From Candidatus Kapaibacterium sp. (GTDB lineage: Bacteria > Bacteroidota > Ignavibacteria > Kapaibacteriales > JAEUSM01): a DNA stretch of 64,000 nucleotides. Each line of letters starts with the position of its first letter. Within the stretch, counting starts at the first letter, position 1. Below the pieces are notes generated by a model. It was given only the letters and a program-made list of their open reading frames with translations, was not told the origin of the DNA and made no database searches. Location of the stretch: positions 1-64,000 of the forward strand of contig JAEUSM010000018.1 in assembly GCA_016788785.1 (NCBI GenBank), in the 5' to 3' direction. Positions 51,302 to 61,167 of the stretch are shown here, piece after piece. The position numbers and the translations under genes are program-made.

Positions 51302-51340
51302 CCCTCTCCCCTTGAGGGAGAGGGCAGGGGTGAGGGGTAA
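51302..51340. repeat. Stand-alone copy of the DUF559-element end sequence
   Basis: CCCTCTCCCCTTGAGGGAG, then AGGGCAGGGGTGAGGGGTAA. It corresponds base for base, with few changes, to the terminal repeat of the element at 60299-60747, but has no nuclease gene. Confidence 0.75.
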
Positions 51341-59996: not shown

Positions 59997-60183
59997 AGTC
60001 TTCTTTCAATAAAATAATAATAATGATACAAAAATAACGAATAAAAAATGAATCGGTGTGATAACCTTTCGTGATGTATGGAAAAATCCACATTTGGCAT
60101 GGTAGCATCTTAGAATCCCTTAAAGATGACAAAAATGGTAACCCCCAATTTCAATCGGGGGTGATTTGTGACGAGTCAAACTC

Positions 60184-60290
60184 CCTCTCCCCTTGAGCGG
60201 ATATGGGACACTGAGGCTCTCGAAGTGGGGTTAGGGGTAAATTCTGCATCAAATCTCCCTCTCCCCTTTAATTGGAAGAGGCTCTTCTCA
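60184..60290. repeat. Degenerate copies of the DUF559-element end sequence, left side
   Basis: One copy (60184-60240) starts CCCTCTCCCCTTGAG and ends GGGGTTAGGGGTAA, interrupted by CACTGAGGCTCTCGAAGTG, a degenerate inverted form of the 22-base unit seen near the cyclase gene. After the linker ATTCTGCATCAAA (60241-60253) a second, truncated copy begins (60256). The rest of the gap 59997-60183 holds nothing recognisable. Confidence 0.65.
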
Positions 60291-60298
60291 AAGTAACC

Positions 60299-60747
60299 CC
60301 CTCGCCCCTATGGGGAGAGGGTAAGGGGAGAGGGGTAAATAATCTACATCTTTTCCAACCGTATCCTATCAATTTCATTCAGCAATTGACTCGGATCCCA
60401 ATGCAACATCGTATTAGTTACTCGAATGACAGTATAACCTTTGGAACGTAAAAATTCATCTCGTTTTTTGTCATAAACAATCTGTTGAGGAGTATCGTGA
60501 ACATCACCATCAAATTCTATGATTAAATCTAACGAAGGACAATAGAAATCTACAATATAGGGTTCAATGACAACTTGACGTTTAAATTTTAGCCCAAAAT
60601 ACTTTTTAGTTCGTAGAAAATGCCAAAATTTTTTCTCAGTACTAGTTTGTTGTTTGCGTAGTTGTTTTGCAAAAATCAACTTCTCGCTATCGATTTTCAT
60701 GTAGGTTTTGCCCCCTCTCCCTGACCCTCTCCCCAATGGGGCGAGGG
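60299..60747. mobile_element. Putative DUF559-nuclease element with ~47-bp terminal inverted repeats
   Basis: Left end (60299-60347): CCCTCGCCCCTATGGGGAG, AGGGTAAGGGGAGAGGGG, then TAAATAATCTAC. Right end (60701-60747) read inverted: CCCTCGCCCCATTGGGGAG, AGGGTCAGGGAGAGGGGG, then CAAAACCTAC. The two agree almost throughout. The nuclease ATG is the base after the right end and its TAG stop lies inside the left end, so the gene fills the element exactly. No target-site duplication is evident. Calling it mobile is inference from the structure and from the many extra end copies nearby. Confidence 0.6.
60344..60700 (-). CDS. DUF559 (Vsr/PDDEXK-like) endonuclease-domain protein
   Basis: 118 residues from the ATG at 60700; a longer frame from 60736 only adds residues encoded by the terminal repeat (GRGSGRGG) and is rejected. 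An N-terminal helix (KQLRKQQTSTEKKFWHFLR) is followed by FGLKFKRQVVIEPYIVDFYCPSLDLIIEFDG with Asp51, Glu62, Asp64 and His68 at the conserved nuclease positions, then DKKRDEFLRSKGYTVIRVTN. This is the DUF559 family, related to very-short-patch-repair nucleases; its natural DNA target is not established. It is enclosed by inverted repeats, suggesting it acts on those repeat ends. Confidence 0.9.
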   Translation of the reverse strand: MKIDSEKLIFAKQLRKQQTSTEKKFWHFLRTKKYFGLKFKRQVVIEPYIVDFYCPSLDLIIEFDGDVHDTPQQIVYDKKRDEFLRSKGYTVIRVTNTMLHWDPSQLLNEIDRIRLEKM

Positions 60748-60814
60748 AAATCTTTAAGTTTTGAAAATTGAGACTAATATACCTGATTTTCTATTGTAAT
60801 CTAATCATTATCAT

Positions 60815-61092
60815 CTCCCTCGCCCCTTGAGGGAAAGAAAAAAAATCAAACTCCCCTCGCCCCTCTGGGGAGAGGGTTGGGGAGAGGGGTAAATTCTGCA
60901 TCAAAGCTCCCTCGTCCATCAGGCGGAAGAGGCGAATGGGGTGAGGGGTAATTCTGAATCAAGCTCCCTCGTCCCTCTGGCGGGAGAGGGCGGGGGTGAG
61001 GGGTAATTCTGCATCAAAGCTCCCTCTCCCCTTGAGGGAGAGGGCGGGGGTGAGGGGTAATAGAAGCGTATCTCCCTCGCCCCTTGAGGGAG
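60815..61092. repeat. Tandem array of DUF559-element end copies, period about 56 bp
   Basis: Starts of CCCTC(G/T) units at 60854, 60909, 60966 and 61022, with truncated ones at about 60816 and 61074. Each full unit ends GAGGGGTAA and is joined to the next by the same linker ATTCTG(C/A)ATCAAAGCT, which also occurs at 60241 on the other side of the element. Linkers are conserved, so this is not a CRISPR array. No gene is seen in 60748-61208. Confidence 0.8.
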
Positions 61093-61167
61093 TGCGAGTT
61101 ACGGTTTTTTTTAATTAATTTTATATATGTGACCAATGCGTGGACAGGAAGATTTATTGCATAAGGA

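Follow-up and report, generated by a model that had tools for sequence, protein, structure and literature searches.

The DUF559 nuclease gene within 60299-60747 of the window (the whole 64,000-nucleotide stretch of DNA analysed) is framed by two inverted copies of a palindromic repeat. This 449-bp segment is probably one copy of a widespread selfish unit, built like a REPtron and mobilised by an unrelated nuclease. The association between DUF559 genes and such ends appears to be real, general and previously unreported, with strong signs of a selfish element. Evidence for this reading is provided by the layout of the unit, by the occurrence of matched ends in many phyla, and by loci where the unit is present in one genome and absent in its relatives.

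The unit and its dispersed copies

On direct reading, the gene lies on the minus strand, and open reading frames and Pfam show that DUF559 is the only protein encoded between the ends. Lying 367 nt apart in inverted orientation, the two ends show 80% complementarity over 41 nt (repeat pair I1). A gapped alignment carries the match on to CTACAT at both inner edges. The end consensus is CCCTCGCCCC-N3-GGGGAGAGGG-N3-GGGGAGAGGGG. The initial annotation had described a gene framed by inverted repeats, with its ATG directly after one end and its stop codon within the other, and this holds: the ATG is found 6 nt inside the right end and the TAG in the inner part of the left end. The features of the unit and the gene-less copies in the window are as follows.

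60344-60700, minus strand: DUF559 nuclease gene (predicted Vsr/EDxHD-like PD-(D/E)XK), 118 aa, with ATG at 60698-60700 and TAG stop at 60344-60346 (open reading frame and Pfam PF04480)
60299-60339, plus strand: left end, on the 3' side of the gene; hairpin CCCTCGCCCC-TAT-GGGGAGAGGG, linker TAA, third strand GGGGAGAGGGG facing the gene
60707-60747, minus strand: right end, on the 5' side of the gene; architecture of the left end inverted, linker TCA
60854-60890, plus strand: gene-less end copy with third strand (repeat I2, 89% to the right end)
60966-61004, plus strand: gene-less end copy, diverged (3 mismatches)
61022-61058, plus strand: gene-less end copy with third strand (genome and window palindrome scans)
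61070-61096, plus strand: partial gene-less copy (repeat search and core scan)
60911-60950, plus strand: degenerate gene-less copy, third strand GGGGTGAGGGG retained (repeat family D3)
60179-60237, plus strand: degenerate gene-less copy to the left of the unit (repeat families D1 and D3)
60253-60274, plus strand: partial gene-less copy (repeat family D1)
60813-60834, plus strand: partial gene-less copy (repeat family D1)
51302-51337, plus strand: solo copy 9 kb distant, with third strand GGGGTGAGGGG (genome and window palindrome scans)

Six gene-less copies had been proposed. Those at 51302, 60854 and 61022 are good copies, the one at 60966 is diverged, and degenerate ones are found at about 60184 and 60909. 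The list is extended by partial copies at 60253, 60813 and 61074. The unit is situated inside a cluster of the same repeats. The palindrome core has 14 matches in the window (7 sites, read on both strands), against 0.01 expected in shuffled sequence. In the 2.97-Mb genome, 49 palindrome sites are found at no more than 2 mismatches, and none for a reversed control pattern. The repeat is a high-copy dispersed element and not merely the end of a DUF559 gene. None of 28 solo repeat sites in the window genome lies inside a coding frame; the coding insertions described below come from other lineages.

The same genome carries a second DUF559 gene on contig 14, 96% identical over 338 bp. The match begins precisely at the outer edge of the left end and runs to a contig break inside the gene. 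A weaker similarity further upstream (80% over 101 bp) seems to stem from another dispersed repeat, so that this pair alone is no proof of movement. A dispersed hairpin repeat (CCCCxATTTCAATCGGGGGTGAT) precedes both copies, at 60100-60165 of the window and at L002:1298-1365.

The protein belongs to Pfam family PF04480 (DUF559), with E=1.4e-31 and 109.1 bits against a curated cut-off of 20.6. Residues E22, D51, E62, H68 and D77 are invariant in two alignments, and D64 is invariant in the first and at least 90% conserved in the second. An AlphaFold2 model (pLDDT 87.8) was matched by Foldseek to NGO0050 (3hrl), to the catalytic domain of the homing endonuclease I-Bth0305I (3r3p, probability 1.00) and to Vsr (1cw0). 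Its predicted fold and its E-D-H-D residues place the protein in the EDxHD/Vsr superfamily. Because the active-site residues are conserved and the model is Vsr-like, an intact nuclease active site is likely, and activity is predicted. A Vsr-like fold is also seen by Foldseek in mitoribosomal proteins of Toxoplasma and Tetrahymena (PDB 9i05, 9g6k, 6z1p).

Ends across genomes and phyla

To look for ends, the 250-bp flank on the left of a short DUF559 domain was aligned with the reverse-complemented 250-bp flank on its right, at score thresholds of at least 28 and at least 34, with random 315-bp intervals from the same loci as controls. DUF559 is carried by 46 of 99 genomes of the same order, which a close family match (L124, in genome G003, Candidatus Kapabacteria KatS3mg040) marks as Kapabacteriales-like. 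Inverted ends were found at 57 of 68 short units in these 99 genomes at the lower threshold and at 47 of 68 at the higher, compared with 5/656 and 2/656 controls. In other phyla (Proteobacteria, Chloroflexi, Nitrospirota, Nitrospinota, Verrucomicrobiota and others), ends were found at 64 of 79 loci at the lower threshold and 58 at the higher, the controls giving 11/881 and 0/881. The possibility that most relatives would hold the gene without the repeats is contradicted by these counts. About 16-19% of short DUF559 genes gave no clear ends within the 250-bp flanks, which counts against the selfish-unit reading. Long DUF559 proteins of the same genomes have ends in 1 of 12 cases, even with 1-kb flanks. 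These proteins (L100-L112) are mostly 260-290 aa, match from about profile position 17, and form a natural negative control.

The end sequences vary by lineage, and their plan is common: a pyrimidine arm is joined through a loop to a purine arm, after which come a short linker or a mini-hairpin and then another purine strand. The hairpin is outermost, with the extra purine strand toward the gene, in 56 of the 64 ends that could be classified. When the ends are folded as single-stranded DNA, the pyrimidine arm is predicted to pair with either purine strand, giving two alternative hairpins.

Each gene has an end type of its own, and this is true even of paralogues in a single genome. In 14 genomes with at least two units, the median end score is 43 for the two ends of one unit and 23 for ends of different units (p=9e-8), and clean own-pair diagonals are seen in G090, G084 and G011. 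This comparison rules out a generic tie of DUF559 to any repeat-rich spot. Similarity of ends follows similarity of proteins (Mantel r 0.65 overall, 0.49 within the order and 0.23 in the named set), although species relatedness feeds into these values and not into the comparison within genomes. Repeats at random distances from DUF559 genes, which would have spoken against the initial annotation, are not what is found: the ends lie near the gene as matched inverted pairs specific to each.

Dispersed copies follow the gene as well. Short DUF559 genes occur in 14 of 15 genomes with an excess of at least 30 C-hairpin-G-G motifs, compared with 23 of 84 others, an enrichment whose significance is inflated by shared ancestry. 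Some genomes (G018, G052 and G094) are rich in repeats and have no short DUF559 gene.

Host genes, empty loci and gene-less pairs

Many units lie inside coding genes, a feature that the initial annotation had missed. In translation, such a long open frame runs from host protein through an end-encoded peptide, DUF559 and a second end-encoded peptide back to host protein. The ends are read through without stops, giving peptides such as LPSPTGRGAGGEG. Hosts confirmed by Pfam include restriction-modification proteins (HsdM, N6 methylases, Type ISP and Eco57I enzymes, HsdR) as well as methionyl- and valyl-tRNA synthetases, an HrpA-type helicase, MetH, a Mur ligase and RimM. The named sample was collected with a five-sequence subset as query, the original alignment being too diverse for a scan of the collection; it therefore leans towards a single DUF559 clade, and the share of in-frame units in it cannot be taken as representative.

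Protein comparison places the inserts between contiguous residues of the E. coli homologues. The insertion point in HrpA is 241/242-244 in five Gallionellales, that in MetG lies in a linker (about 545-571) in five cases, that in ValS is near 652, and MetH has insertions in two lineages. MetRS and ValRS are essential in E. coli, so an in-frame insert in them must be tolerated. Sites recur in HrpA, MetG and HsdM, and most units are at unrelated sites. In the protein tree, 13 changes of host gene are needed for 10 host groups, which means that units entered different hosts many times. Restriction-modification genes are preferred surroundings: of 149 unit loci, 23 are in or near them, compared with 0/40 random loci, 0/28 solo repeats and 0/13 long DUF559 genes.

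An example of change at a single site can be found in the HrpA of a Gallionella (L175). This protein has its own unit at residue 614, and at residue 241, exactly where its relatives hold a full unit, it has a gene-less in-frame end pair. Its DUF559 falls in the same well-supported clade as the units of those relatives. In another HrpA, from a Gallionellaceae genome (L150), a 307-aa in-frame insert consists of several nested ends and DUF559, a case of repeated insertion at one site. A different arrangement is seen at L069:1510-3789, where an intein-like insert in the gene of a DNA methyltransferase (LTDDHRVLV ... HNCGSGTTAF) contains a DUF559 that has no inverted ends. Could this DUF559 serve as the homing endonuclease of an intein?

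Presence and absence at orthologous sites, as expected of a mobile element, is seen in two settings. At one unit (L113 in genome G006), the flanks are 555 bp apart, and in five congeners they are 65-89 bp apart, so that empty sites do exist in close relatives. A separate repeat of about 140 bp at this locus (query 211-356, L113:1710-1855) has dozens of copies in G006 and G036 and is unrelated to DUF559. In E. coli, strains TUM2830, ECNB21 and 09A19 lack a gene-less pair that others carry between hrpB and mrcB, a polymorphism whose direction of gain or loss is not polarised. In strain UTAK-13 (L274) the inverted pair at this locus has collapsed to a single hairpin by deletion between the palindrome arms. 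The G006 and hrpB-mrcB loci, whose flanks have diverged, revealed neither a target-site duplication nor any other mark of insertion; the 12-40 bp beside the insert are non-homologous as well, being either replaced or diverged. For a unit in a type I restriction region (L065), the congeners had no orthologous region and hence no empty site.

Left and right ends without the gene occur together at many places in G030, G052 and G056. The central proposal of the initial annotation, that gene and ends form one unit with gene-less derivatives, is borne out by such pairs.

The DUF559 gene of E. coli is ycjD, present in 3366 of 5426 genomes. In MG1655 a perfect copy of the triplex motif (TMECO no. 9) is near ycjD, and a degenerate copy spans the ycjD stop codon, as at the window gene. 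Strains without ycjD retain the repeats. The gene was rejected as a clean empty site: strains lacking it have the eefRABCD operon instead, and there is no simple insertion site. Between fabI and sapF (L120 / L121), alleles bearing ycjD or eefRABCD alternate, with triplex repeats on the ycjD side. Repeat-mediated replacement is possible at this locus.

Known systems, mechanism and rival explanations

The repeat is not new; the initial annotation had considered the element possibly undescribed. Judged by sequence and architecture, the window end is the intrastrand triplex motif (PIT/TM) of E. coli, described in E. coli and more than 260 bacterial genomes (TMECO repeats; Holder et al. 2015, PMC4666352). 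Compared with Table 1 of that paper, 60299-60339 has the C-rich arm, the G-rich arm, a 3-nt linker and a second, TMECO-like G-rich arm. Both share the three-strand architecture CCCTCGCCCCTTTGGGGAGAGGGTTAGGGTGAGGGG, high copy number, intergenic position, inverted pairs and variation between strains. Holder et al. counted 23 copies in MG1655, in which inverted pairs are always type A plus type B and the loci are unstable, reported that the E. coli motifs form a triplex in vitro, and stated explicitly that no mobility gene is near the motifs (PMC4666352). The motif was described without a gene; here it marks the end of a unit with a nuclease gene, varies between lineages and also occurs as in-frame insertions in coding sequence. 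On sequence grounds the intrastrand-triplex motif can be linked to DUF559, including E. coli ycjD. Among the papers searched that mention ycjD or DUF559, none links either to triplex repeats, and a literature search for DUF559 with inverted repeats, REPs or in-frame palindromes found no link.

The REPtron, a RAYT gene with its REPs (PMC3733652), is similar in having a single small nuclease gene between inverted palindromes and many non-autonomous dispersed copies. It differs in that RAYT is an HUH/tyrosine transposase and the protein here appears to be Vsr-like PD-(D/E)XK. REPs carry GTAG (PMC3733652); here GTAG/CTAC is found close to the ends of the window unit and of some others (L056), and neither GTAG nor CGTC is the feature shared across units. 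A RAYT-type element was ruled out, since only DUF559 and no HUH/Y1 tyrosine transposase lies between the ends. CGTC repeats lack a dedicated transposase (PMC3733652). Rickettsia palindromic elements, cited in the same paper, are likewise inserted in frame within protein-coding genes; they have no known gene, whereas the palindromes described here are accompanied by a nuclease gene, and this across many phyla. Of the marks of a classical insertion sequence, terminal inverted ends are present; no duplication was seen at the two loci with empty relatives, where the flanks have diverged. EDxHD/Vsr homing endonucleases (I-Bth0305I; PDB 3r3p; PMC12350094) resemble the modelled protein in fold and in the E..D..H..D active site, and by analogy selfish spread by DNA cutting is plausible for DUF559. 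Unlike them, most units have no intron or intein, are bounded by hairpins, and occupy many unrelated sites, not one conserved site.

A mechanism for the selfish unit can be proposed in which cleavage and movement would be carried out by the DUF559 unit. The end is a GC-rich hairpin whose pyrimidine arm may pair with either of two purine strands. Ends made single-stranded at a fork or R-loop would fold, and the DUF559 protein would recognise its own end type and nick or cut there. Host repair or recombination could then copy the unit, or its ends only, elsewhere, often beside existing copies. Once the gene is lost, end pairs without it and solo ends would be left behind as the dispersed repeats. 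As the ends can be translated with no stop codon in the way, insertions into permissive loops within genes would be tolerated and kept.

The main rival is homing of DUF559 into pre-existing repeat pairs, which is compatible with part of the data and is nonetheless rather unlikely. The repeats would be spread by another agent, or by slippage or recombination at triplexes, and DUF559 would cut a gene-less repeat pair and be copied between its halves. The nearest characterised structure is indeed a homing endonuclease, units lie inside repeat clusters, and gene-less pairs occupy the same HrpA site as full units. Some repeat-rich genomes have no short DUF559 gene, and these, like the E. coli strains without ycjD, require another agent or past activity. 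Paralogues in the same genome, however, have different ends, and the two ends of a unit match each other, a pattern that homing into a common repeat would blur, and the repeats are enriched in genomes that have the gene.

More doubtful still is a role for DUF559 as a chromosomal nuclease of Vsr type, serving repair, restriction or defence, beside palindromes that act as terminators or as recombination hot spots aiding exchange. Caulobacter VsrA, a DUF559 protein that interacts with cytosine methylation, has been studied as a candidate repair nuclease (PMC12907096), which weighs against the selfish unit. The number of units in or near restriction-modification genes (23/149, against 0/40 random loci) fits a defence role, as does the proposal that the repeats are terminators in Enterobacter (PMC2869309). 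Gene-specific end pairs, nesting in HrpA, MetG, ValS and MetH, and translated ends with no terminator role are left unexplained by it. Ordinary domain fusion or chance can be given almost no weight. DUF559 is a common accessory domain, some long proteins have a genuine domain without ends, and C/G-rich inverted repeats might arise from composition; chance and base composition are refuted by the matched controls (5/656 and 11/881) and by the window shuffles, and fusion is countered by the E. coli homologues, which are contiguous at the insertion points.

A broader claim than the selfish unit itself is put forward tentatively, at somewhat less than even confidence. The units may represent a new class of mobile element, in which a lone Vsr/EDxHD nuclease mobilises hairpin/triplex ends across phyla and enters housekeeping genes, aminoacyl-tRNA synthetases included, in frame as a translated insert. 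Such an element could be the long-missing source of the PIT/TM repeats in E. coli and hundreds of genomes.

If this is true, it would be explained where a palindromic repeat that ranks among the commonest in bacteria comes from and which gene mobilises it, a repeat described in 2015 as having no gene for its mobility. A role would also be found for DUF559, a domain of unknown function that is very common and to which E. coli YcjD belongs. In-frame palindromes such as those of Rickettsia would have a nuclease-bearing counterpart, which would turn the entry of palindromes into protein-coding genes into a testable question. Nesting in MetRS, ValRS and HrpA would amount to a natural protein-insertion system, and the recurrence of peptides such as LPSPSGRGAGGEG in unrelated proteins would be explained.
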